Origin: Bacteroidota bacterium
Lineage (GTDB): Bacteria > Bacteroidota > Bacteroidia > Bacteroidales > Prolixibacteraceae
Assembly (NCBI GenBank): GCA_030684645.1
Contig: JAUXUF010000118.1
Span: forward strand, 1-44,247
Length of the DNA: 44,247 nucleotides
Reading direction: 5' to 3'
Positions 3,305 to 27,592 of this stretch are shown here, piece after piece (the first letter of the stretch is position 1; each line of letters opens with the position of its first letter). The position numbers and the translations under genes were made by a program. The notes below the pieces were generated by a model. The model ran no database searches, was not told the origin of the DNA, and was given only the letters and a program-made list of their open reading frames with translations.

Positions 3305-3452
3305 ACGGAAGACTGCAAATCAACAAAAGTGGAAAATTAGAATTATCAACAGAGATAAAATCCCTTAAATAAAGGCTTAGAACTCTGCTTTTATGCAATT
3401 TGTTGATAATTCAATTCAGTATTTTACTAAAAATCGTTTATACTTGTGCCAC

Positions 3453-3660
3453 GATTGTAGGTTCGTGTGTTTTGCTTTCGCGAAACCACGATGAAAAGGG
3501 AATCCGGTGATTTGATGGTTAAATCCAACAAAAATTCCGGAGCTGTACCCGCAGCTGTAAGTCCGCAACGCGTTTCTGAAATCACTTTAGCCACTGTTGG
3601 TCAACCGACCGGCGGGAAGGCTTTCAGAAACCGGACAAGCCAGAAGACCTGCCGCAATCC
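3453..3660 (+). promoter_or_regulatory. cobalamin (B12) riboswitch upstream of nrdDGBA
   Basis: The conserved core of a B12 riboswitch is visible in order: GAAAAGGGAATCCGGTG (3492-3508), GGAGCTGTACCCGCAGCTGT (3539-3558), AGCCACTG (about 3589-3596), CGGGAAGGC (3613-3621) and GGACAAGCCAGAAGACCTGC (3633-3652). Outer stem P1 can form between GATTG (3453-3457) and CAATC (3655-3659). In this family adenosyl- or methylcobalamin binding represses expression. A 156-base stretch with hairpin potential (for example around 3671-3700) lies between the aptamer and the nrdD start and probably holds the expression platform. Confidence 0.93.
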
Positions 3661-3816
3661 GATATTTTATCAAGAAGACTTTCGGGAATAAAAGTCTGGC
3701 TGAAATCCGGAAACGCAAGCTGTTTTCTTTTTTTGAAAACCTCAGTTTACTTCCTCTTTCATCCGTTATTCCTGTTAGGCTCATGTTGAACAAACAAGAA
3801 CTAACAAAAAAATTGT

Positions 3817-10092: not shown

Positions 10093-10114
10093 CCACCGCG
10101 TTCATTTAAATTTT

Positions 10115-10288
10115 GGGAATAGGATACCCCGTAAAACGGGTTTAATAGGGAATCACGTTTAAATCGTGAGCTGTCGCGCAACTGTAAAGTCCAACAACAG
10201 TTTTGTAACTTAAAGCCACTGTTCTGATACCAAAATCAGAATGGGAAGGCGTTGCAAAACGGACAAGCCAGGAGACCTGTCTTATTTC
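10115..10288 (+). promoter_or_regulatory. cobalamin (B12) riboswitch upstream of metE
   Basis: The same conserved blocks as in the first riboswitch appear in order: AATAGGGAATC (10144-10154), GTGAGCTGTCGCGCAACTGT (10166-10185), AAGCCACTG (10213-10221), ATGGGAAGGC (10241-10250) and GGACAAGCCAGGAGACCTGT (10261-10280). Outer-stem pairing is plausible between AATAGG (10119-10124) and the stretch around CCTGTCTTATT (10276-10286). It lies 150 bases ahead of metE. B12 repression of metE, when the B12-dependent MetH can take over, is a well-known arrangement. Confidence 0.93.
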
Positions 10289-10437
10289 ATGAACGACAAT
10301 TACTTTCGCGGTATAGAGCAATGGTCAGGAACGAAAAAAGATATTTCTTCTTTCACATTTTCTTTCGTACACCTTTCTGTTTATTTACCCGCGTAAGCAT
10401 ATCAAAATCTAATTTTAACCCATTTAAATGTTGACTT

Positions 10438-13241: not shown

Positions 13242-13556
13242 TCAGATATTTATATTTTTGTCATGTACTAAGAATGTATTCATTAATTGTTGTTTAGTGT
13301 GCACTCCTGATTGTTTGTATTTGATTTCTCCGTTTTTGAAAATCATAAGTGTAGGAACGCTCCGAATCTGATATCGGTTAGCTACTTCCTGATTTTGATC
13401 CACATCAATTTTGATCACCCGAACCCGATCTCTAAATTCGGTTGCTACCTCTTTTAAAATGGGCGATTGCACCTTGCACGGCCCGCACCACAATGCATGA
13501 AAGTCAACGACAACTGGTTTCGTATCGCTAATAATTGATTCAAAGTTTGCTTTCAA
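13242..13556 (-). CDS. thioredoxin
   Basis: A 104-residue cytoplasmic thioredoxin with the active site WCGPCK (Cys24, Cys27) and the cis-proline segment RSVPTLMIFKNG. It reduces protein disulfides. It is the last gene of a compact minus-strand run and starts 6 bases after the ferredoxin stop. The unusual FHALWCGPC context still retains both redox cysteines. Confidence 0.93.
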   Translation of the reverse strand: MKANFESIISDTKPVVVDFHALWCGPCKVQSPILKEVATEFRDRVRVIKIDVDQNQEVANRYQIRSVPTLMIFKNGEIKYKQSGVHTKQQLMNTFLVHDKNINI

Positions 13557-13562
13557 CTTTTT

Positions 13563-14063
13563 TTAAACTTTGTATGTTAAACTTCCGTTTGGACAGGATG
13601 CCACACATTTCAGACATTTTGAACAGGTATAGCTGTCGCCCGGAGCGGTCATTTTTGATTTGTACAAACTGAATTTTGCTGGTTCCATGGCCACGATGTA
13701 GCACTGTTTATCGCAAATGCCACAGGTTTTGCAGGTATCTTCGTTCAGTTTAATCCTGAAAATGGAGTACTTATTTAAAAATCCTGAAATCCAGGCAATC
13801 GGGCATCCGATTTTGTGATATTGGTACATTTGTTTGATTTTACCATCGTCACCACCCAAACTCATCATCATTTCCATAATCAGTCCCATCGGACAAACCC
13901 ATCGACAAAAAACTTTTCCGAAGACTACTCCCATTATCGCTCCGGCCAGTACAATATACCAAAGCGAAATATTATATTTCGATATAGCCAGGTATAAAGA
14001 AACGCCCAACACCGACAAAATTATCATTCGGTTAGTAACCAATACTTTTAAAACTTTTCTCAT
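13563..14063 (-). CDS. NapH/MauN-like membrane 4Fe-4S ferredoxin protein
   Basis: A 166-residue membrane protein with one or two N-terminal transmembrane segments (about residues 14-50), a CRWVCPMG motif typical of NapH/NosR/RdxA-type electron-transfer proteins, and two ferredoxin-type clusters with motifs CKTCGICDKQC and CSKCLKCVASCP. It probably moves electrons between the quinone pool and a redox partner. It is shorter than NapH and has fewer membrane spans. It lies between the flavoprotein (24-base gap) and thioredoxin (6-base gap), suggesting a shared electron-transfer path. Confidence 0.8.
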   Translation of the reverse strand: MRKVLKVLVTNRMIILSVLGVSLYLAISKYNISLWYIVLAGAIMGVVFGKVFCRWVCPMGLIMEMMMSLGGDDGKIKQMYQYHKIGCPIAWISGFLNKYSIFRIKLNEDTCKTCGICDKQCYIVAMEPAKFSLYKSKMTAPGDSYTCSKCLKCVASCPNGSLTYKV

Positions 14064-14086
14064 TCTCTTGATTTTAGCACTAATTT

Positions 14087-15255
14087 TTACATGCCTGGCA
14101 AACGTAGAAATTTACCAACTTTGGTTAATTTGGAATAAGTTCCCCAACCTTTTTTCATCCAGTGACCAACGATTGGCATTGGGATAAGAAAAGATTTTTT
14201 ATCATTCCGAAAAACAAACGCTGCTCCATCTCCGGTATCCATCACACATAAAATATTTAACGATTCCTGATATCCTTTTCTTTTCTCTGAGCCTTTTTCA
14301 GTTTCGAGAATGTTAAACGCAGCATTTCGGCCCATTAATTCGGCAACATGACCTTGCTTGGCAATCCATTCCGGACCTTCCATGGCTGCAATGTCACCAA
14401 TGGCATAAACTTCTGAATAGCCATGCACCTGACAAAAATTATCAATCCGGATAAAACCTGCATCAGACAATGGCAAATCACTGGATTGTAAAACACGGTG
14501 GCCAGCCGATGCCGGGATAAACAAAATCAGGTCAGCATTTAGTTTTGATTCATCTTCAAAAACGATCGAATTAGGTTCAAATCCGGTAATTTTTTTACCA
14601 AACCGTTTTTCAATGTGGTATCTGTCGAACAATTTATTCAACATGGGTAAGGCATTCTGTCCCATTCTTGTACCCGGTTGCTCCATTGGCGCGAAGAAAG
14701 TCAGTTCGAAATTTTGCCTGAGTTTTTTCTTTTTCAGGAGGTTATGTATATTGAATATCAGCTCAAATGCAGGGCCTCCGCGAACTGCCGATTTATCCTT
14801 CGGATTTCCTCCAAAACCAACCGCAATCTTTCCACTTCCTTTTTCAATCAACTGATCCAATCCATCACGAATAGCCAGTGAAATTTCAGGTTTGCCGCAA
14901 ATCGAAAGGGTATTTTCAACTCCCTTGTGTTTCATTTTATCAGCGCCAAAAGCCACCACCAAATAATCGTAGCTCAAAATCTGTGTTTCACAAACCACCT
15001 GACGATCGGCGGCATGGATTTCTTTTACAGCATCAACAATGACTTCAAACGATCCTATTTCTTCCGGATGTCAGCCAGGGGTACTTTCACATCGTCAAAC
15101 TCAGCAGTTCGAACCGGAATCCAAATAGAAATTGGATAGATGTATAAATAGTCCCGGTCGGAAACCAAAGTGACTTTAAATTTTCCGCTTTTCTGCAGTT
15201 CAATGGCTGTTTGTACGCCGGCAAAACCACCGCCCAGAATGATAACTTTCTTCAT
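14087..15255 (-). pseudogene. sulfide:quinone reductase/NDH-2-like flavoprotein, frameshifted
   Basis: Two adjacent frames form one protein of about 389 residues. The first (15255-15055) has the FAD-binding start KKVIILGGGFAGVQTAIEL and ends DIRKK-stop. The second reads through from before 15055 (EIGSFEVIVDAV...) and continues with LSYDYLVVAFGA, EVYAIGDIAA and the C-terminal RLPGM. The frame changes in an A-run (minus strand, 15058-15060): one missing A would restore DIRKKIGSFEV. The second part appears as an open frame only from a GTG at 14998, so it would not be made as such. The family oxidises sulfide or NADH and passes electrons to quinone. A sequencing error, a real mutation or programmed slippage would all give this pattern. 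Confidence 0.8.
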
Positions 15256-15286
15256 CGGTTCGTTTATTAATTTTTGGTTTTTACTT

Positions 15287-17284
15287 CTATCGCTGTCTCA
15301 TCATTTGCATGATTCCACCACCGTTTTTCACGTTGGTAAAACCCATTTGCATCAAGCCTCTTTGTCCGTAAGCTGAGCGCGCTCCTGATGCACAATAAAG
15401 TGTTATTTCACGCGACTTACTTCCTAATTCGGTAACTCTCATCTGCAATTCATCCAAGGGAATATTGATTGCACCGGGATAAGCCCCTTCCACAAATTCT
15501 TCGGGGGTACGCACATCAACAACGATAGGAGAATTTACATCTTTGACCTTTTCAACTGCTTTTTTTTCAGTTGTCGAAGTTTCCTTTTCCAGAGATTTTG
15601 GCTCAACAGGTAAAAGATTAATATTTATGTCTTTAAAACCAAGGGTTCGTGCCTGGCGTTGCATTGAGGTATGTCCGCCGGAAATATTGGTTACATCTTT
15701 AAAGCCTGCGCCCAACAAGGTGCGAAGCGCCTGATGTCCTTTTTTTCCGGTTTCGTCGTAAACAATCACCGGACGGCCTTCAGGAATACTATTGATTTGT
15801 TCTGCACGAATTTCAAGAGGCAAATGAATGGCTCCTTTCACATGACTTTTTTCGAAAGCGAAAACATCGCGAACATCTACAAAAACGGGGTTTTTCCCTT
15901 CAACAAAAGCATCAAGTTCCGAAACGGTAACAGATGGACTGAAACCGGAAATCCGGTTTTCTGCGGTATATGCAGCCATGTTAATCGCGTCGTTGGCTGT
16001 TCCGATTGGTGGCGAATAGGCAAAGTCAATATCAGCCAGATCACTGAGTGTCAATTTTGCGGCTGTTGCAGTTGCAATCACATCCAGACGTTTGTCTGCA
16101 CCTTTGTATCCTGCAGTTTGTCCACCCAGAATAATTCCGGTGTTACGGTCGTAGATCAACATGGTGGTTACTGTTTCTGCACCTGGATAATAGGACGTGT
16201 GATGTTCTTTATGAACGACAACTGAATCGGCATCAAGTCCTGCAGCCCGTGCCTGCTTCAAAGAAAAACCGGTTATCCCAGCCACAGCTTCGAAAACGCG
16301 AACCACCGAAGTTCCTATTGCACCTTTGTAAGGGTGATTTCCGCCTAAAGCATTTTCAGCGGCAATCCGTCCCTGGCGGTTTGCTGGTCCAGCTAATGGA
16401 ATGCGTACCTTTTTACCGTTTACGCGATGTTCAATCTCGATCATATCGCCTGCCGCAAAAATGTCCGGATCGGAAGTTTGCAACTTTGAATTGACCAGCA
16501 ATCCACCAGCTTCTCCAATTTCGAGACCTGCGTCTTTAGCCAGCTGCAGCGTTGGACGAACGCCAATAGATAGCAAAACCATATCGGCATCCAGTATTTT
16601 CCCATTGTCAAGTTTAACCGAGCGTGAACCAATTTCGGTAACACCTGCACCTGTGTGAATACCCACACCGTATGAAAGCATTTCATACTCAATGAATCCT
16701 GCTGTTTCGGCTTCCATGATGGCCATCACATGCGGCATCATTTCCACCACATTCACGTTTAATCCTCTTTTTACCAGGGCTTCCACCATTTCGAGACCAA
16801 TAAATCCACCGCCCACAACAACAGCTGTTTTAGGTTTTTTTACTTCCAGATGATGCGAAATCTGATCCATGTCATCCAAAGTCCACAGGGTGAAAACATG
16901 GTTCTGATCGGCACCCGGTATGGTTGGTTTTATGGGCCGGCCACCCTGTGCCAATATTAATTTGGTGTATTGAAATGTTTTCTGCTCTCCGCTGCGGCTG
17001 TCAATGGTTTTCACCTGGTGCGCCGTACTGTCGATTGACGAAACGACTGTATTTATGTGTACTTCAACGTCGTATTGTTCTTTGAAACTTTCGGGACTTT
17101 GCAGGATGAGTTTCGATCTGCTTTTGATGTCTCCGCCAATGTAATACGGTAATCCGCAATTGGCAAACGAAATGTCCGGTCCGCCTTCAATCATCACAAT
17201 TTCAGCGGTTGGTGATATGCGGCGTGCTTTGGCTGCCGCGGTTGCTCCGGCGGCAACTCCTCCTATAATTAATATCTTTTCCAT
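15287..17284 (-). CDS. CoA-disulfide reductase-like flavoprotein with two C-terminal rhodanese domains
   Basis: This 665-residue protein begins with a pyridine-nucleotide disulfide oxidoreductase (KILIIGGVAAGATAAAKARR) carrying the single catalytic cysteine of CoA-disulfide reductases at Cys43 (SFANCGLPYYIGG). A dimerisation domain follows. Then come two rhodanese domains: the first, about residues 460-560, has VYDETGKKG where the active-site Cys should be, so it looks inactive; the second, about residues 580-665, keeps it in LYCASGARSA. Known CoADR-rhodanese fusions reduce CoA persulfide or polysulfide and usually carry one rhodanese domain. It sits in the thiol-redox operon, 31 bases after the flavoprotein start and 36 bases before the membrane thioredoxin. 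Confidence 0.9.
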   Translation of the reverse strand: MEKILIIGGVAAGATAAAKARRISPTAEIVMIEGGPDISFANCGLPYYIGGDIKSRSKLILQSPESFKEQYDVEVHINTVVSSIDSTAHQVKTIDSRSGEQKTFQYTKLILAQGGRPIKPTIPGADQNHVFTLWTLDDMDQISHHLEVKKPKTAVVVGGGFIGLEMVEALVKRGLNVNVVEMMPHVMAIMEAETAGFIEYEMLSYGVGIHTGAGVTEIGSRSVKLDNGKILDADMVLLSIGVRPTLQLAKDAGLEIGEAGGLLVNSKLQTSDPDIFAAGDMIEIEHRVNGKKVRIPLAGPANRQGRIAAENALGGNHPYKGAIGTSVVRVFEAVAGITGFSLKQARAAGLDADSVVVHKEHHTSYYPGAETVTTMLIYDRNTGIILGGQTAGYKGADKRLDVIATATAAKLTLSDLADIDFAYSPPIGTANDAINMAAYTAENRISGFSPSVTVSELDAFVEGKNPVFVDVRDVFAFEKSHVKGAIHLPLEIRAEQINSIPEGRPVIVYDETGKKGHQALRTLLGAGFKDVTNISGGHTSMQRQARTLGFKDININLLPVEPKSLEKETSTTEKKAVEKVKDVNSPIVVDVRTPEEFVEGAYPGAINIPLDELQMRVTELGSKSREITLYCASGARSAYGQRGLMQMGFTNVKNGGGIMQMMRQR

Positions 17285-17320
17285 ATTCTTTTCAATTTGT
17301 TTTTGAGATACTCTTTTTAA

Positions 17321-17740
17321 CTATCCTACTTTGGCTATCTCTTTCAGTAAAAAATCTTTTGATTTGATTCCAACAAAACGGTTAATTTCTTTGCCGTTTT
17401 TGAAAAGGATCAAGGTTGGAATACTCCTGACTTTAAATTGATTAGCCAGTTGCTGGTATTGCTGAATGTCAACCTTACCCACATGTGAGTTTCCATTTAA
17501 TTCTGAAGCCACATCGTTTAAAACAGGTGCCATCATTCGGCAGGGAGCGCACCAGGTAGCCCAGAAATCGACCAATACGACTTTGTTTTTAGTCTGTTGT
17601 TGAAAATTCTTTTCGGTAAGGGTCAATACTTTTGCATGGTCAGCCACCAAAGGCGTGTTTTTCATTTTCGCCATCGCGATAAAACGGAAAATAAAGATTG
17701 TGGCAACTAAAAGCCCGATTATTATCAATGTAGTTTGCAT
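17321..17740 (-). CDS. membrane-anchored thioredoxin
   Basis: A 139-residue thioredoxin with an N-terminal hydrophobic helix (residues 4-23) followed by a classical domain with WCAPC (Cys64, Cys67) and RSIPTLILFKNG. The helix would anchor the domain to the inner membrane, most likely on the periplasmic side, although the short positive segment after it leaves orientation open. It is second in the operon, 38 bases after the CX6C thioredoxin-like gene. Confidence 0.88.
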   Translation of the reverse strand: MQTTLIIIGLLVATIFIFRFIAMAKMKNTPLVADHAKVLTLTEKNFQQQTKNKVVLVDFWATWCAPCRMMAPVLNDVASELNGNSHVGKVDIQQYQQLANQFKVRSIPTLILFKNGKEINRFVGIKSKDFLLKEIAKVG

Positions 17741-17778
17741 ATTGTTCTATAATTAATTTGTTTATTTATTTGGATATA

Positions 17779-18135
17779 TTAAGCTGGTACGGTTGCGGCA
17801 AATTCCTGGTCTAGAATAGAAGTCACCTGGGTTTTGGTCTGAATGCCTGAAGTGGCTTTCATTACTTTCCCGTTTTTGTAATAAATGGTAAATGGAATTC
17901 CCATAAAACCTTTGACTTCAGGCAAATTGCGAATGACATGCGATTCAGGATTATCAAATTCCATATCATAGAAATTCACATGTTTATAATCTGCTTCCAG
18001 TTCTTCTGCAATCCGATAAACCGGAATACACATGGGCCCCATTCGTCCACAGATGATCGTTACTTGTTCGTTTTCGTTGATTATTTGTGCATGATCAGCC
18101 GCGCTTTCAATGTGTTTTAAATTGGTGTACAACAT
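17779..18135 (-). CDS. thioredoxin-like protein with CX6C in place of CXXC
   Basis: This 118-residue protein has a thioredoxin-fold pattern (VNFYDMEFDNPE, then GIPFTIYYKNGKV containing the cis-proline). The normal WCXXC is replaced by CGRMGPMC (Cys29 and Cys36). Loss of CXXC argues against ordinary disulfide reductase activity. It may bind a thiol, persulfide or metal (inference). It is the first gene of the operon, directly behind the divergent promoter region facing the Crp/Fnr regulator. Start ATG at 18135. Confidence 0.75.
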   Translation of the reverse strand: MLYTNLKHIESAADHAQIINENEQVTIICGRMGPMCIPVYRIAEELEADYKHVNFYDMEFDNPESHVIRNLPEVKGFMGIPFTIYYKNGKVMKATSGIQTKTQVTSILDQEFAATVPA

Positions 18136-22191: not shown

Positions 22192-22214
22192 ATTGGCAGG
22201 AAAATCCTTGCAAA

Positions 22215-22979
22215 TCACTTTACTAAGCTTTCCCCCTTCGGGGGAACGGGAAAGGGGCTTTTCATCCCCAAATGTTGATCCGCAAATTTAAGATACTGGC
22301 TCCAGTCATACATTGTCAGATCATGTTTTCCGGAGCGGATATGGTAACCGATTGTACCCATCACCGGTTGATCGACTTCAGGCATTTCCTTTACCGGAAG
22401 ACCTTGCAGACTAAGTAATTCATAGGCGGCAGAAGCGTATTTTGCCGATAGGAATTCACCTCTCGGATCGGCCCATTTGTCGCCTTCGGCGCTTGCAACA
22501 TACAACGGTCGCGGAGCAATTAAGGCCAGTAACATGTGCTGATCGACCGGTAACTGCTCTTCATTGTTGTTGTAATGGTTAAAGTTATCACAAAACCAGT
22601 GAGGAAAAGAAGTATTGATACTTCGGACAGTTTCTCCAAATGAGCGTCGCGAAAGGGCAGCGCCACCGCAACCCGATTCATTGGAAATGACCATTGCAAA
22701 CCGCTGATCGGTTGCCCCGGCCCAAAGAGCTGCTTTTCCAAGTCTTGAATGACCCAAAACTGCCACTTTTTTTGAATCAACCTGCGAATCTTTTTCCAGA
22801 CAATCCATAATCCGGGATAATCCCCAGGCCCAGGCAGCAATTGAACCCCATTCGTTTGATTTGGGCCTGGTTTGTTTATCACGGTAAAAAAACGGATGGA
22901 TACCATCAGAAAAATCATTTTTATCGGGATCGATATCTCCATAATAAACAAGAAGAAATAGAAATGAAATACCTTTCAT
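22215..22979 (-). pseudogene. CE15 glucuronoyl methylesterase-like protein, N-terminally truncated
   Basis: The 254 residues match the C-terminal two-thirds of carbohydrate esterase family 15: [12 protein letters not shown], the nucleophile motif [24 protein letters not shown], the acidic [13 protein letters not shown] segment and the catalytic-His region [11 protein letters not shown]. The N-terminal part and the signal peptide are missing, and frames upstream of 22979 carry stops. CE15 enzymes cut the ester between lignin and glucuronoxylan and need export, so this copy is probably inactive. The last dozen codons ([14 protein letters not shown]) are supplied by a GC-rich intergenic repeat. 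Confidence 0.72.
22229..22260. repeat. GC-rich dispersed hairpin repeat, copy 1
   Basis: The sequence CTTTCCCCCTTCGGGGGAAC with the following GGGAAAGGGGCTT closely matches 26365-26398 and resembles 25897-25936. The CCCCC/GGGGG arms form a hairpin. Confidence 0.7.
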
Positions 22980-23216: not shown

Positions 23217-24485
23217 TTATCCGATTTCGCGGGTAATGGCGATGGCTGCAATGGTTCCATCAGCAATGGCTGTAGTAATCTGGCGGTATTTCTTGCTACC
23301 CACATCTCCTACAGCAAATACCCCATCAATATTAGTACGCATATCCTCATCAGTTTGAATATAACCCCACTGATCAAGTTTTAAAATATCGCCAAACATG
23401 TCGAGATTTGGTTTCTGGCCAATGAAAATAAATATTCCGTCTGAAGTAAGCGTTTTTAATTCTTTGGTTTTCAGGTCTTCCACCTCAACGATCATTTTAT
23501 CGCCGGCCTTTTTAAAAGCCCGTGGTTCATGCTCAAACATAAAACTGATCTTCGGGTTGGCAAAAGCCTTTTCCTGGGCAGTTTTATTGGCCTGAAGCTT
23601 ATCGAACTGGTGTACAATTGTAATTTTAGAAGCGAATTTTGAAATAAAATCAGCTTCCTCTATGGCAGAATTTCCACCACCAATCACCACCACTTCCTTG
23701 TCGTGGAAATACTTGGCATCACAGGTCGCACAATACGATATGCCCTGTCCTTTAAATTCCAGTTCGCCAGGAATTCCAATCCGGTTAGGAGAAGTTCCGG
23801 TGGCAATAATAATTCGTTTGGCCTTGATTATTTCCTGTCCGTCGATGGTAATTTCCTTTTTGTCCAAATCGACATGTGTTACATCAACAGCAACTTTATA
23901 AGTGGTTCCGCAGCGTTTGGTTTGCTCCGACATGTTGTGCGATAGCATGTATCCTGGCTGAGGATCAATAAATCCGGGGTAGTTCGAAACCATGTGCGTT
24001 GTCGAAACATTTCCACCCGGCAATGCAATATCAACCAAAACCGTATCGATTTTGGCCTGGCACAAATATAATCCGGCAGTCAAACCTCCGGGGCCTGCTC
24101 CCAGAATAGCGACATCTGCCTGTACAATGGAAGGTTTCTGAGTCTTCATAATATCTGAAACCCGTTCCTTTCCGAGTACGTGTTTTAATTCACGGACAAT
24201 CTCAGAGCGTTTAACCCCACCTGTCAGGCGGCCACAAACTTCTTCACCATCCTGATAAAACAACAGGGTTGGAGATGATTGCACAATTAATTTATCAGCC
24301 AGTTCGCGATTGCCCTGGCGGAAGATTTTTACAAATTTGATTTCCTTTCCAAAGAGGGCTTCCAATCCTTCCAGTTTGGGTGCAATTGCCTCACAGGGAG
24401 GACATTCAGTTGAATAAAAATCAACCAGAATATTTCCTCCGGTCAGTACTTCCTTTTCAAAATCTGCTGCAACAATTTCTTTCAT
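23217..24485 (-). CDS. thioredoxin-thioredoxin reductase fusion
   Basis: A 422-residue fusion. Residues 1-105 are a thioredoxin domain with active site CPPC (Cys28-Cys31) in FYSTECPPCEAIAP. Residues from about 118 are an NADPH-dependent thioredoxin reductase: FAD motif GAGPGGLTAGLYL, redox motif CATC in SYCATCDAKYF, NADPH motif VIGGGNSAIEEAD and C-terminal FAVGDVGSKKYRQ. It couples NADPH to dithiol reduction in one chain. The order (thioredoxin first) is opposite to the well-known M. leprae reductase-thioredoxin fusion. Its ATG follows the radical SAM stop by 3 bases, so the two are translated together. It may recycle dithiols used in, or protected by, peptide modification (inference). Confidence 0.93.
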   Translation of the reverse strand: MKEIVAADFEKEVLTGGNILVDFYSTECPPCEAIAPKLEGLEALFGKEIKFVKIFRQGNRELADKLIVQSSPTLLFYQDGEEVCGRLTGGVKRSEIVRELKHVLGKERVSDIMKTQKPSIVQADVAILGAGPGGLTAGLYLCQAKIDTVLVDIALPGGNVSTTHMVSNYPGFIDPQPGYMLSHNMSEQTKRCGTTYKVAVDVTHVDLDKKEITIDGQEIIKAKRIIIATGTSPNRIGIPGELEFKGQGISYCATCDAKYFHDKEVVVIGGGNSAIEEADFISKFASKITIVHQFDKLQANKTAQEKAFANPKISFMFEHEPRAFKKAGDKMIVEVEDLKTKELKTLTSDGIFIFIGQKPNLDMFGDILKLDQWGYIQTDEDMRTNIDGVFAVGDVGSKKYRQITTAIADGTIAAIAITREIG

Positions 24486-24488
24486 GGT

Positions 24489-25790
24489 TTAATTATTAAA
24501 ATAGTTAGCAATACCCAGTTCCAGTAATTCGGTTACCGGACGGCAATCGGGACTGTTCAACGTTCCGCTGTAATTTTTTGCCATTGATGCACAACCACCG
24601 CCGCAAATCAGGTTCATGTTGCATGTTTGACATTTCGGGATTGATAAAACATCGCGCTCCTGCCATTCCTCAACAGCTTTCGTGTTTTTCCTGATTTCAG
24701 GATAGAAAGTACCAAGGCTTTCGCCTTTTTTTCCCACTGTGGCTGTGCAGGCATACACATTTCCGGTAAAATCGAAAGCCCATTCGGTTTTGGTACCCGT
24801 GCAGGCATCAAAAAGCGGGGCAGGCATTTCACCTTGTTCGAACAAGAATTTTGAGACTGAAAATGCCGGCTGGTGGAATTCACTGATGTGTGGAAATTTC
24901 TTCAGTAATTCGTATAAATCCTGATACAATTCGAGCCTTGAATACAGCTTTTGCTGATTAACCTGGCATTCGTGCAGTTCGTAGTTTCTGCCCAATTGCG
25001 TTTTAAATAATGAGGAAGCCGTCCAGCCTTTATCGATAGCAAACTGAGCCAAATCGGGCAAATTTTCAATATTTTGCTTATCGACCACCATGCGTAAATT
25101 AACCGGAATATTGTTTGCAATCAAAAGGTCAACTCCCCGAACGATACGATCAAAAGTAGGATCTCCACCTTTCAGGTAGCGCCGTTTGTTGTGTATTTCA
25201 CTTGTTCCGTCGAGAGTAACCTGAATTTCACGAATGTTGCTGCCTTTCAGAATCTCCATGTATTCTTCCAAATGGTAACCGTTGGTTACAGCGGCAATTT
25301 CCAGCTTGTGTTCAGTTGCCTTCCGGATGATGTATTCGATGTTTTCCTTATGGCGCGGTGCATTCAAAAAAGGCTCACCTCCAAAAAGGGTAATGTATTT
25401 TCGTCTTCCCGGAAATTCATTCAGTATATATTCAAAAAACGAGTCCGTCACTTCTCTGGACAGAGCAACCGGCAACTGTTCGTAGCCCGCCTGATAGCAA
25501 TACGAACAATCGAAATTGCAAGAATAGTTGGTCACAAAGAAGATCTGAATTTCATCTTTCTCACGATCATCCAGAAATCGAAGATATTTTTCACGAAACA
25601 GTTTTTTTTCCTGAACCGGATCGACCAGGTAACCGTTTTCGATCAGTTCCTGATTACTTTCATCAGCATTTTGCAATTGTTCGAAAGTTTCCTTGTCCAG
25701 TATATCTGCTTGGCCGGATAATGCATTCACTACGAACCAGGTATCAGAATCCTTAACTTTTGATGTGATGTTGTATTTGGAGATTTGCAT
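24489..25790 (-). CDS. radical SAM/SPASM-domain enzyme, probable peptide maturase
   Basis: This 433-residue enzyme has a canonical radical SAM cluster motif, CNFDCSYC (Cys91, Cys95, Cys98), followed by TLFGGEPFLN and VTNGYHL. A C-terminal SPASM region carries extra cluster cysteines in CQTCNMNLICGGGC (387, 390, 396, 400) and PDC (416), with a further Cys in YACTATVG. The first 80 residues (VKDSDTWFVVNALSGQADIL...) look like the N-terminal recognition/strand-helix region common in peptide-modifying SPASM enzymes. A 31-residue Cys-rich peptide gene lies 165 bases upstream on the same strand, and no sulfatase is nearby. The exact reaction (thioether, epimerisation, C-C link) cannot be told. Confidence 0.85.
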   Translation of the reverse strand: MQISKYNITSKVKDSDTWFVVNALSGQADILDKETFEQLQNADESNQELIENGYLVDPVQEKKLFREKYLRFLDDREKDEIQIFFVTNYSCNFDCSYCYQAGYEQLPVALSREVTDSFFEYILNEFPGRRKYITLFGGEPFLNAPRHKENIEYIIRKATEHKLEIAAVTNGYHLEEYMEILKGSNIREIQVTLDGTSEIHNKRRYLKGGDPTFDRIVRGVDLLIANNIPVNLRMVVDKQNIENLPDLAQFAIDKGWTASSLFKTQLGRNYELHECQVNQQKLYSRLELYQDLYELLKKFPHISEFHQPAFSVSKFLFEQGEMPAPLFDACTGTKTEWAFDFTGNVYACTATVGKKGESLGTFYPEIRKNTKAVEEWQERDVLSIPKCQTCNMNLICGGGCASMAKNYSGTLNSPDCRPVTELLELGIANYFNN

Positions 25791-25896
25791 GGAAGAATAG
25801 GTAAAACATTTTAAATCCCCTACAAGGGAACTTTAAGGCATTGTATAAATGAAATGTTCATGTAAATTTGATAGGAATGAGCCTTTGCAGCCGTCT

Positions 25897-25922
25897 CCCA
25901 GCCCTTCCGGGGAAGGGTTGGG
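25897..25922. repeat. strong hairpin between peptide gene and radical SAM gene
   Basis: CCCAGCCCTTCC/GGAAGGGTTGGG form a 12-base stem with one mismatch around a 2-base loop, part of the GC-rich dispersed repeat family. It could act as a partial terminator that lets the peptide be made in excess over the enzyme (inference). Confidence 0.6.
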
Positions 25923-25955
25923 ATAGGGCCCTTCAACCTTAAAAGGTCGGACGCC

Positions 25956-26051
25956 TTAATCGTGGCATCCGGCAATAATCTGTGATTGTTTGGCACAACA
26001 TTGTGCCTGTTTAATCTGTCCTTTTTTGTCTTTTTTTACCAGACTCTTCAT
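25956..26051 (-). CDS. 31-residue Cys-rich peptide, candidate RiPP precursor
   Basis: ATG 26051 to TAA 25956 encodes 31 residues. The first half is lysine-rich (MKSLVKKDKKGQIKQA) and resembles a short leader. The second half is a Cys-containing core, QCCAKQSQIIAGCHD (Cys18, Cys19, Cys29). No other start or frame fits. It lies directly upstream of the radical SAM/SPASM gene on the same strand and is too short for normal gene callers. Position, size, basic leader and clustered cysteines are the expected traits of a radical-SAM target peptide, though it does not match a precursor family I can name with certainty. A structural or stress peptide, or a chance frame, remains possible. Confidence 0.6.
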   Translation of the reverse strand: MKSLVKKDKKGQIKQAQCCAKQSQIIAGCHD

Positions 26052-26161
26052 AAAACTTAATTTTTGTTGATGATTAAACTATAGAGAATAAAAGTACTCA
26101 AAATGGAATTTAAATTAAATTTCGATGACTGAATACTTTCAGACTTTTCATTTTTGATAAA

Positions 26162-26177
26162 ACTTCAATTTTGAAGT
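26162..26177. promoter_or_regulatory. perfect 16-base palindrome upstream of the peptide gene
   Basis: ACTTCAATTTTGAAGT is its own reverse complement. It lies 111 bases upstream of the peptide ATG, in the region where a promoter for the peptide/radical SAM/reductase genes would be. Operator function is a guess. Confidence 0.35.
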
Positions 26178-26186
26178 CGAATTTCA

Positions 26187-26238
26187 TTCCGTCCGAAAGA
26201 TGGAAAACTCTTTTATTCATCTGCTACCGCGGACGGTT
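26187..26238 (-). repeat. 52-base REP-like element, copy 1
   Basis: The ends are conserved with 37401-37452: AACCGTCCGCG at one end and ATCTTTCGGACGGAA at the other, separated by exactly 26 non-conserved bases in both copies. The two ends contain CCGTCCG/CGGACGG inverted arms. This copy is in reverse orientation relative to the other. Confidence 0.8.
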
Positions 26239-26258
26239 GTATTGATTTCTTCTTTTTA

Positions 26259-26336
26259 CCCAGGGCGACACTCTCCCGATTCGTTCCTCTCGGAATCGCT
26301 TTGCCCTGGGGTATTGCTAAAATGCCCTTTCAGGGC
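26259..26336. repeat. REP-like double hairpin
   Basis: CCCAGGGC (26259-26266) pairs with GCCCTGGG (26303-26310), enclosing CGATTC/GAATCG (26277-26282, 26293-26298). A second hairpin, GCCC-TTTCA-GGGC, lies at 26324-26336. This style of intergenic repeat is common in Bacteroidota genomes. Confidence 0.65.
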
Positions 26337-26364
26337 GGGTATAAATGCAAATCATTGCCCAAAA

Positions 26365-26398
26365 CTTTCCCCCGTTTGGGGGAACGGGAAGGGGGCTT
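26365..26398. repeat. GC-rich dispersed hairpin repeat, copy 2
   Basis: CTTTCCCCCGTTTGGGGGAA and the following CGGGAAGGGGGCTT match copy 1 at 22229-22260 with few changes. It sits just after the methyltransferase stop codon. Confidence 0.7.
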
Positions 26399-26407
26399 CT
26401 GGAACTC

Positions 26408-27049
26408 CTAACAGCAACTATACTCATCTTTTGTAGCAGATATCGTAAAGCTCGACACTTCAATTTTCCCCTTCTGATAGGGGACACTTTCTTCAAGAAT
26501 ACGAAAATCTTTAAATCCGGTTGCTTTAACAATAGCGATGTATTCCTCTTTAGTAATTGAACCGGCCCAACATTCGGCAACAGCAACAGGATCGTTGGCA
26601 TATTCCTCCGGAACGGATTCGCTTGAATAAATATCGCTGATCACAAATCGTCCGCCGTTTTTTAGCAATCGATAGATTTCGGCCCAAATCTTAGCTTTAT
26701 TGCTAACGTGGTTAAGGGTGCAATTTGAAATAATCAAGTTGGCTACTTCATCCTCCAATTGTATTTGTTCCAAATCAGACTGAATAAACTTCACATTTTC
26801 AACACCCATTTTTATGGCTGTTGAAGTAGCTTTCCGAATCATTTCTTCAGTTACATCGATACCGTAAACAAAACCTTTTGGTCCAACTTCTTCAGCCAGA
26901 CGCAAAACATCTGTTCCTCGTCCGCTTCCCAGATCAATGCAAACTTCCCCGGTTTCTGCTTCACTTTTATCGGCTGCACCTCCACACGACAAACAGCATG
27001 TATCGTTTGCCAAAGCGGAATATCTGCCTGCTATTTCAATTGTGTTCAT
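26408..27049 (-). CDS. ArsM-like SAM-dependent methyltransferase
   Basis: A class I methyltransferase of about 213 residues, with motif I CIDLGSGRGTDVLRLAEEVG and then GIDVTEEMI. Cysteines occur where arsenite methyltransferases have them: NDTCCLSCGG near the N-terminus, SNCTLNH, and AECWAGSITKEEY. A Cys pair ends the protein (EYSCC). The protein is somewhat shorter than typical ArsM. I chose ATG 27049 over 27079 because a TATATTTG box at 27069-27076 predicts transcription starting between the two, and MNTIEIAGRYSAL is the more natural N-terminus. No arsenic genes (arsR, acr3) are adjacent. It is on the same strand as, and upstream of, the peptide/radical SAM/reductase genes. It may be arsenic detoxification or a tailoring enzyme. 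Confidence 0.8.
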   Translation of the reverse strand: MNTIEIAGRYSALANDTCCLSCGGAADKSEAETGEVCIDLGSGRGTDVLRLAEEVGPKGFVYGIDVTEEMIRKATSTAIKMGVENVKFIQSDLEQIQLEDEVANLIISNCTLNHVSNKAKIWAEIYRLLKNGGRFVISDIYSSESVPEEYANDPVAVAECWAGSITKEEYIAIVKATGFKDFRILEESVPYQKGKIEVSSFTISATKDEYSCC

Positions 27050-27068
27050 TGTCTTCAATTTTGAGGTG

Positions 27069-27076
27069 CAAATATA
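27069..27076 (-). promoter_or_regulatory. candidate -7 promoter box of the methyltransferase gene
   Basis: TATATTTG on the minus strand matches TAnnTTTG exactly. The -33 position (27096-27099) is not a good TTTG match and abuts the palindrome at 27098-27121, which may suggest regulated expression. Confidence 0.45.
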
Positions 27077-27097
27077 CACAAATTTTTTATTACATAC

Positions 27098-27121
27098 ATA
27101 TATCTATATCTTTAGATATAT
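27098..27121. promoter_or_regulatory. inverted repeat, candidate operator of the methyltransferase gene
   Basis: ATATATCTA (27098-27106) and TAGATATAT (27113-27121) are exact inverted repeats separated by 6 bases. They sit over the -33 region of the minus-strand promoter, 49 bases upstream of the chosen start. AT-rich arms of this shape are typical of ArsR/SmtB-type binding sites. No regulator gene is present in the window. Confidence 0.5.
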
Positions 27122-27592
27122 TATCTTACCAGTAAATTAACACTTCTTGTTTTCGCTCAAAAACTGGATAAGGTAGGTTGCCAAACAGAATAAACGATAT
27201 AAATTTACACCTGAATGCGATTTCAATATTCAAATCTATCTACTAATTTTCAACTTTTGATACCTGCAAGATAATTATTAATGATTAAAGGTTTACCTTT
27301 AATAGGCTGACTTCTTTAGTTCTAATTCAATACACCAATTTTAACAGAAACTAAACAGAATTGTATTTTTTCAAGTCTGTCAAGACCTTAAAATTCTTTC
27401 TTTGTTAAACGAAAAAACAGGGATTAGAAATTTAAATTGCATTTTTATGCTAAAAATTCAACGAACTAATTACTTTTGAAAATCATCCATATTGCATATT
27501 TTTTTGTTTTTTGACATATCATATTGAAACACATCATTTTAGTATATATTCGCATTTTTAAATTAAAATCAGGACAACTCTAAATTTAACTT
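27122..27592. other. AT-rich intergenic region with one palindrome
   Basis: There is no credible gene here. ATTAAAGGTTTACCTTTAAT (27284-27303) is a 20-base near-perfect palindrome with 9-base arms, about 290 bases upstream of the serine palmitoyltransferase gene. It is a possible operator. The rest is AT-rich divergent promoter sequence. Confidence 0.4.

Follow-up and report, generated by a model that had tools for sequence, protein, structure and literature searches.

The DNA analyzed here, referred to as the window, is a stretch of 44,247 nucleotides (positions 1 to 44,247 of the forward strand) of contig JAUXUF010000118.1, assembly GCA_030684645.1, from a Bacteroidota bacterium of the Prolixibacteraceae. 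It encodes a four-gene cassette comprising a small cysteine peptide, a radical S-adenosylmethionine (SAM) enzyme with a SPASM domain, a thioredoxin-thioredoxin reductase fusion, and a methyltransferase related to ArsM. The original prediction, made from the letters alone, took this set for a new cassette of the kind that produces ribosomally synthesized and posttranslationally modified peptides (RiPPs). As had been claimed, all four are minus-strand genes, and the stop codon of the radical SAM gene lies 3 bases ahead of the ATG of the fusion. The methyltransferase was also correctly placed upstream, but its end had been set at 27121; the most likely start is the ATG at 27049 (MNTIEIAGRY), and the stretch up to 27121 therefore includes promoter DNA. 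The parts of the cassette, with lengths in amino acids (aa), are:

23217-24485, minus strand: thioredoxin-thioredoxin reductase fusion, 422 aa, with CPPC and CATC sites
24489-25790, minus strand: radical SAM/SPASM peptide-maturase-like enzyme, 433 aa
25956-26051, minus strand: precursor-like peptide of 31 aa, MKSLVKKDKKGQIKQAQCCAKQSQIIAGCHD
25959-26006, minus strand: invariant tail (core) of the peptide, AQCCAKxSxxxxGCHD
26007-26051, minus strand: variable, lysine-rich, leader-like part of the peptide, starting M[KR][ST][LV]
26408-27049, minus strand: ArsM-related class I SAM methyltransferase of a cassette-specific subfamily, 213 aa

Homologs were collected with the radical SAM protein in a pattern-based search of one genome per species (84,980 species), which recovers close relatives only. 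Among the 70 homologous loci obtained, 64 have a nearly full-length enzyme and are labeled as Bacteroidota (57), Spirochaetota (5), Ignavibacteriota (1), and Myxococcota (1); the phyla represented by single bins could reflect mis-binning. The gene order methyltransferase-peptide-enzyme-fusion is maintained from the Bacteroidota through to the single Myxococcota locus, with occasional inserted genes and one rearrangement (L105). In a tree of the enzyme, the closest rows to the window are Prolixibacteraceae and Bacteroidetes metagenome-assembled genomes, the five Spirochaetota rows cluster together, and the Myxococcota row (L109) forms a long outer branch.

A Small Cysteine Peptide with a Nearly Invariant Tail

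A peptide of 30 to 50 residues is encoded upstream of the radical SAM gene, on the same strand, in 64 of the 70 loci as judged by a regular expression, and tblastn without the regular expression likewise finds it in 64 (E ≤ 1e-3). The regular expression fixes QCCAK...GCHD, and a deviating tail would be scored as a miss, but all six misses have another cause: in five (L111, L112, L114, L115, and L116) the contig begins within the enzyme, and in the sixth (L065) the enzyme is a fragment from residue 96 on, its first 95 residues gone and the upstream DNA unrelated. The last 16 residues of the 64 peptides read AQCCAKxSxxxxGCHD and terminate at the D, with 11 of the 16 positions invariant (A, Q, C, C, A, K, S, G, C, H, and D). 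Codons of the tail differ synonymously, for example TGT and TGC (34 and 30) or GCC, GCT, GCA, and GCG (25, 20, 16, and 3), and the leader part is variable save for M[KR][ST][LV] and many lysines (31 rows). As a control, the nine open reading frames (ORFs) of at least 20 aa in 25791-26410 were searched by tblastn at the same threshold: the peptide frame alone reaches 64 of 70 loci, four ORFs that overlap it in other frames find 14, 18, 19, and 21, and the remaining four find none. On the strength of this comparison within the same intergenic DNA, conservation of the peptide frame goes beyond chance. The peptide matched no model in NCBIfam (E ≤ 0.1) or Pfam (E ≤ 0.01).

At L085, and likewise at L087, another gene stands between the peptide and the radical SAM gene; it belongs to ORF cluster 17 and is DUF302-like by our own reading. 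Extra cysteines occur in the tail of the methyltransferase (often SCC) or in the leader of the peptide (SCC, CGC, or CAC) and rarely in both: among 62 loci, 29 have them in the tail only, 19 in the leader only, 5 in both, and 9 in neither, a count that includes the L061 methyltransferase, whose tail was read out of frame and is unreliable. The leader-cysteine form falls mostly in one clade and so possibly reflects few events. The pattern hints that the methyltransferase and the peptide may act together.

The Radical SAM/SPASM Enzyme Resembles Peptide Maturases

The enzyme has its CxxxCxxC motif at Cys 91, 95, and 98 (conserved in 64 of 64, 64 of 64, and 65 of 65 aligned loci) and a full SPASM domain in which Cys 330, 348, 387, 390, 396, 400, and 416 are conserved in 70 of 70 aligned loci, identifying it as a SPASM radical SAM enzyme. 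Among the 25 NCBIfam families listed of the 76 matched, the top scores belong to peptide maturases, and all are far below their cut-offs. CefB (NF038107; 163.5 bits, cut-off 600) and TIGR04463 (131.1 bits, cut-off 525) score highest and align over nearly the full length, yet the cassette peptide is without the cysteine-every-fifth-residue pattern; the PapB model gives 123.1 bits (cut-off 340) and the SCIFF maturase model TIGR03974 gives 99.7 bits (cut-off 425). Grouping with the sulfatase maturases, the assignment that would have spoken against a peptide substrate, was rejected, as the anaerobic sulfatase maturase (anSME) model TIGR03942 scores 77.9 bits against a cut-off of 349.45, lower than the peptide maturases. 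Structure comparison agrees: in a Foldseek search with an AlphaFold model (predicted local distance difference test, pLDDT, 89), CteB is nearest (5why, E = 1.6e-17), followed by anSME, BlsE, ChlB, and SuiB.

The cassette shares with the SCIFF system (CteB/ScfB) and the ranthipeptides (PapB, freyrasin) a small cysteine-rich precursor beside a radical SAM/SPASM enzyme, with CteB the closest solved structure. It differs from SCIFF in its maturase score, in having three tail cysteines rather than six, and in having the methyltransferase and the thioredoxin-thioredoxin reductase fusion as regular partners. The N terminus of the enzyme may resemble a RiPP recognition element (RRE):

25551-25790, minus strand: possibly RRE-like N-terminal domain of the radical SAM enzyme (about residues 1-80)

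When the N-terminal 86 residues were taken in isolation (pLDDT 90), the five best Foldseek matches were weak ones to complexes of leader with the RRE protein TbiB1 (E 9.4e-3 to 0.1, TM ≤ 0.39), and a CteB chain came next (E 0.5); the outcome leans toward an RRE but falls short of a strict threshold. Spread of the enzyme on plasmids was considered and rejected, since at E ≤ 1e-30 the only plasmid relative is a single remote one (30% identity, Rhodococcus rhodochrous); no methyltransferase or thioredoxin reductase is named among its listed neighbors, and no search for the peptide was made there.

An ArsM-Derived Methyltransferase and a Thioredoxin-Thioredoxin Reductase Fusion

Cysteine numbering and the NCBIfam scan of the methyltransferase are based on the translation of 26408-27034, which is five residues short of the likely start. 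Cys 17, 105, and 155 align with Cys72, 174, and 224 of CmArsM (4fr0), which PMC3877260 gives as the arsenic-binding residues, and they are conserved in 60 of 60, 62 of 62, and 62 of 62 aligned loci; the protein has the ArsM fold together with all three arsenic-binding cysteines. It also has an N-terminal CC-x2-C motif of its own. Cys13 and Cys14 are conserved in 60 of 60 aligned loci, and Cys32 is conserved in 59 of 60. Its score with the curated ArsM model NF008823 is 182.5 bits, below the cut-off of 263, and at 213 aa in the window it is shorter than most other matches, which have open frames of about 260-310 codons. With a model built for the family, complete cassette members score 351-385 bits and other matches at most 178; a second, longer ArsM-like frame in the window's genome (G000:C51, 288 codons) scores 161 bits. 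Judged by these comparisons, the methyltransferase is an ArsM-derived, cassette-specific subfamily with an intact metalloid-type cysteine triad.

The fusion is a single ORF of at least 400 codons in 66 of the 70 loci, the exceptions including L074, where it is in several pieces, and L075, where the contig ends within it. Among the 66 fused ORFs read, the thioredoxin motif is CPPC in 53 and CAPC in 13, whereas the reductase motif is always CATC; thioredoxin Cys 28 and 31 are conserved in 70 of 70 loci and reductase Cys 252 and 255 in 69 of 69 aligned loci. The CATC site is shared with TrxB and AhpF, and AhpF likewise has a thioredoxin-fold N terminus ahead of its reductase. The fusion nevertheless falls below both cut-offs, scoring 316.2 bits with the thioredoxin reductase model TIGR01292 (cut-off 343.45) although CATC is intact, and 197.5 bits with the AhpF model (cut-off 502.9), and it has one thioredoxin domain. 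No peroxiredoxin partner of the fusion was seen, no dedicated search having been made.

Co-inheritance of the Four Genes

Across the 70 loci, tblastn finds the fusion in all 70 and the methyltransferase in 62, the latter being absent from L065, the five cut loci, L069, and L076. Sixty-one related genomes, the window's own included, were also compared. The radical SAM enzyme is present in 26 of them (E ≤ 1e-30), and the peptide is found in 25 of those 26 (E 3e-4 or better); genomes lacking the cassette give just four weak peptide matches (E 0.26-0.90), and two cassette genomes give a second weak one (E 0.047 and 0.79). Every one of the 26 cassette genomes, but none of the 35 others, has a match covering the thioredoxin half of the fusion (E ≤ 1e-60); the others match the reductase half only. 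The cassette-type methyltransferase is present in 25 of the 26 at 359-385 bits, two partial copies scoring 263 and 183, and other matches reach at most 165 bits. One member of the window's genus (G020, 97% complete) has no match to the enzyme, peptide, cassette-type methyltransferase, or fusion and provides a natural absence for comparison.

In a set of 395 genomes of the phylum, again including the window's, six carry the peptide (E ≤ 0.01), and these six are also the ones with the enzyme (E ≤ 1e-80) and with the cassette-type methyltransferase (351-379 bits). Methyltransferase matches at E ≤ 1e-30 are present in 192 of the 395; the best outside the six scores 178 bits, and we take the longer matches there to be ordinary ArsM types. 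The original prediction depended on the small frame being conserved beside orthologous radical SAM genes, and this is what the 64 of 70 loci and the same six of 395 genomes display: a precursor gene adjoining its maturase and co-inherited with it, as expected of a RiPP system. On these sequence matches, the peptide is inherited together with a single radical SAM/SPASM enzyme, a single ArsM-derived methyltransferase, and a single fusion. Pairwise distances of the three large proteins correlate (Pearson 0.85-0.93, 57 rows), a result that shared genome ancestry alone could produce. Copies in two members of the window's genus (G001 and G016) are 58-61% identical, versus 79-88% in other members with a match, and therefore transfer or mis-binning occurs.

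Neighboring Genes and Regulation

In ORF clustering, the enzyme, fusion, and methyltransferase are the only genes whose presence extends beyond about half of the loci. Of the 181 flanking ORFs from 26 loci, 133 were scanned with Pfam, the tally being thioredoxin (11), DUF1847 (10), rhodanese (4), and DUF302 (4). Among arsenic-resistance, transporter, and peptidase families, none accounted for two or more of the 133 ORFs, and an arsenic-operon context, looked for in this tally, was not found. By tblastn, the DUF1847 protein is present in 35 of the 70 loci. It is cysteine-rich, with nearly invariant Cys 77, 103, 124, and 147, and lies between the enzyme and the fusion or after the fusion (for example, L047:7306-7863 and 34 other loci); none was seen at the window's cassette. 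L070, L071, and L113 have a gene of the thioredoxin cluster between the methyltransferase and the peptide, that of L070 being a thioredoxin. Two further features of the window bear on regulation:

13242-18135, minus strand: separate associated operon with two thioredoxin-fold genes, a coenzyme A (CoA)-disulfide reductase-rhodanese gene, an SQR-like gene, a 4Fe-4S gene, and a thioredoxin gene
27097-27122, minus strand: A+T-rich dyad upstream of the methyltransferase, possibly an operator

The operon, of the CoA-disulfide reductase-rhodanese type, is on the same strand as the cassette and about 5 kb from it. Its enzyme has the domain order of the NADH-dependent persulfide reductase Npsr (CoA-disulfide reductase followed by rhodanese), and, according to PMC7969121, those rhodanese-bearing CoA-disulfide reductases that have been characterized are persulfide reductases; the operon's enzyme is a neighbor or co-regulated gene, however, and stands outside the cassette. 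The sequence GTGATACTATTGTAATTTA (at most 3 mismatches) is found ahead of the methyltransferase in 27 of the 70 loci, mainly Paludibacter-like, often as two copies 22-24 bases apart, and in eight loci it recurs at a distance of a few kilobases, ahead of a gene for a CoA-disulfide reductase-rhodanese or for a thioredoxin. Twelve genomes were searched for this operator, selected because their cassette carries the site, so that cassette sites were expected by choice. Among 17 sites with at most one mismatch, 10 accompany the cassette, 6 accompany CoA-disulfide reductase/rhodanese operons (two previously known from the locus comparison and four new), and 1 lies elsewhere; among 11 two-mismatch sites, 4 are at the cassette and 7 are not. 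A reversed control pattern gave 3 matches in the same genomes. The cassette and the CoA-disulfide reductase/rhodanese operon thus appear to be co-regulated in the Paludibacter-like group, as judged by these sites. In relatives from the window's genus, ACATATCAAATAATCTAKATATGT-type dyads occupy the same place as the A+T-rich dyad of the window. This genus-type operator is present in 7 of 7 genomes tested, in six of them just upstream of the cassette methyltransferase; that of G003 lies at 105-128 of another contig and is unplaced, and G018 has one further 3-mismatch site, unread.

In 20 loci, a stand-alone protein, mostly of 142-197 aa, is encoded next to the cassette in divergent orientation (ORF cluster 4; for example, L155:988-1416, L147:987-1415, L161:1596-2030, and L148:986-1417). 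An IS1595-type zinc ribbon was detected in 4 of the scanned neighbors, and the protein is also encoded beside the co-regulated CoA-disulfide reductase operon in three genomes read; it is perhaps a domesticated transposase domain serving as a regulator. Rfam at gathering scores gave no match in the cassette and, in the window, only two cobalamin riboswitches (3442-3670 and 10105-10298), one ahead of an anaerobic ribonucleotide reductase-like set and one ahead of a MetE-like gene, presumably placing B12-independent enzymes under B12 control. Scans for promoter-like sites (10, versus 12.3 expected) and terminator-like stems (12, versus a shuffled mean of 5.3, several inside genes) are not decisive; one such stem, of 9 pairs including 3 G-C, lies between the peptide and the enzyme (25833-25813, minus strand). 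A G+C-rich element in the gap between methyltransferase and peptide (26346-26398) recurs with 83% identity at 22209-22260, a distance of about 4 kb, and is perhaps a repeat of the REP type that does not belong to the cassette.

Proposed Function and Alternative Explanations

We propose, with a probability of roughly 0.6, that the locus is a dedicated RiPP-type cassette for a radical-modified intracellular thiol peptide that would be reduced by the fusion and served by the methyltransferase in a setting of reactive-sulfur or thiol stress. The RiPP-type reading of the original prediction is strengthened by the conservation of the peptide, by an enzyme identity other than sulfatase maturase, and by the restriction of the thioredoxin half of the fusion to the 26 of 26 cassette genomes. 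Its suggestion of cysteine chemistry or thiol protection fits as well, and gains from the operators that, in related lineages, are shared with an operon of the persulfide reductase type. In the proposed mechanism, the RRE-like N-terminal domain would bind the leader (M[KR]S[LV]), and the invariant tail would be the site of action of the radical SAM enzyme. A first guess at the product is a thioether from Cys18 or Cys19 to Ser23, with free thiols including Cys29 left over, because Cys18-Ser23 matches the five-residue spacing of Cys32-Thr37 in SCIFF, whose thioether is given as Cys32-Thr37 or Cys32-Thr34 (PMC8326336). Because no exporter or peptidase belonging to the cassette was seen, the product would remain intracellular as a thiol helper. 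Electrons passing from NADPH through thioredoxin reductase to thioredoxin would keep it reduced, and the methyltransferase may methylate the peptide or a thiophilic atom carried by it (sulfane sulfur, or arsenic or selenium). The apparent joint control with the CoA-disulfide reductase/rhodanese operon in the Paludibacter-like group makes stress from reactive sulfur or thiols the most likely setting. In pyrroloquinoline quinone (PQQ) and mycofactocin biosynthesis, a ribosomal peptide, a radical SAM enzyme, and redox partners yield an intracellular cofactor, and by analogy the same logic may apply to the cassette; unlike those systems, no homologous accessory enzymes were noticed, and the active part would be cysteine thiols rather than tyrosine-derived groups.

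Several observations weigh against this proposal. Modification of the peptide is itself a proposal drawn from sequence. The RRE assignment is weak taken alone: the isolated N-terminal domain has no Foldseek match at E ≤ 1e-3, and the enzyme has no PqqD match in Pfam at E ≤ 0.01. L069 and L076 have no methyltransferase despite 1.7 and 1.2 kb of DNA upstream of the enzyme, and all 70 loci come from metagenome-assembled genomes. The operator link is confined to Paludibacter-like genomes; the window has neither operator pattern, and in the 7 genomes the genus-type operator was seen at the cassette only, bar the unplaced and the unread site, so that for the window we can only infer co-regulation.

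An alternative that we consider unlikely, retained because the cysteine triad is intact, is a metalloid pathway (arsenic, or antimony or selenium) in which the metalloid would be held by the three thiols of the peptide and methylated by the ArsM-like enzyme, thioredoxin and its reductase would give electrons, and the radical SAM enzyme would preorganize the peptide or join the metalloid to carbon. Thioredoxin and its reductase are an electron source in ArsM cycles, and ArsM enzymes have radical SAM partners in the arsenosugar and arsinothricin pathways, and the NCBIfam names of those ArsM enzymes appear among the methyltransferase matches; the residues aligned with the arsenic-binding cysteines of CmArsM are invariant where aligned. 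Yet no arsenic-resistance family accounts for more than 1 of the 133 neighboring ORFs, the window's genome has its second, longer ArsM-like frame, the methyltransferase is under the NCBIfam ArsM cut-off, and the operon that shares the operator is one for sulfur, no second site read having preceded recognizable ars genes. The peptide might instead be an unmodified small protein, a subunit or chaperone of a radical SAM enzyme whose true substrate is another protein, and its very short length, invariant residues that could make a binding face, and the proposed status of its modification are compatible with this. We think it quite improbable in view of the three invariant cysteines, the variable leader, the possibly RRE-like domain, and closest structural kin that are peptide thioether maturases; moreover, apart from the enzyme, fusion, and methyltransferase, ORF clustering provides no gene shared by more than roughly half of the loci.

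Export of the peptide as an antimicrobial or signaling RiPP is less credible still. Several characterized radical SAM RiPPs are antimicrobials, and SCIFF-derived peptides have been linked to quorum sensing, judging by the title of a study cited in PMC8326336. The tail of the cassette peptide is, however, nearly invariant across phyla, unlike variable antimicrobial cores, and this breadth of conservation resembles that of SCIFF, whose wide conservation among Clostridia was used as an argument against an antimicrobial role (PMC8326336). Neither a transporter nor a peptidase family is represented by two or more of the 133 neighboring ORFs, and the dedicated thioredoxin-thioredoxin reductase fusion also speaks against export. 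Least probable is a regulatory leader peptide, acting as a cysteine-codon attenuator or a translational coupler for the radical SAM gene, which would account for the position just upstream of that gene, the adjacent cysteine codons, and the stem at 25833-25813 in a region with 12 stems against 5.3 in shuffled DNA. The noncysteine residues A, Q, A, K, S, G, H, and D are equally invariant while codons vary, and an attenuator is unlikely because in 8 of 64 loci the peptide stop is within 20 bases of the enzyme's matched start, which is too close.

As a kind, the radical SAM RiPP cassette proposed here is known. In the accessible text of the literature searched, there is no recognizable account of the cassette or of this set of partners; radical SAM surveys outside that search might list the family. 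More tentatively, and with the odds against it, the product could be a ribosomally encoded thiol cofactor of low molecular weight and of a new kind. It would be a tri-cysteine peptide crosslinked by radical chemistry, would have a recycling enzyme (NADPH-thioredoxin) and a metalloid-type methyltransferase of its own, and would serve reactive-sulfur (or arsenic or selenium) chemistry in at least four named phyla. Peptide-derived redox cofactors such as PQQ and mycofactocin are rare, and we know of no ribosomal peptide that acts as a dedicated, enzymatically recycled thiol. Strict co-inheritance and a nearly invariant 16-residue tail supply a defined substrate, maturase, methyltransferase, and reductase for reconstitution, and the cassette could connect radical SAM peptide chemistry with sulfur or metalloid handling.

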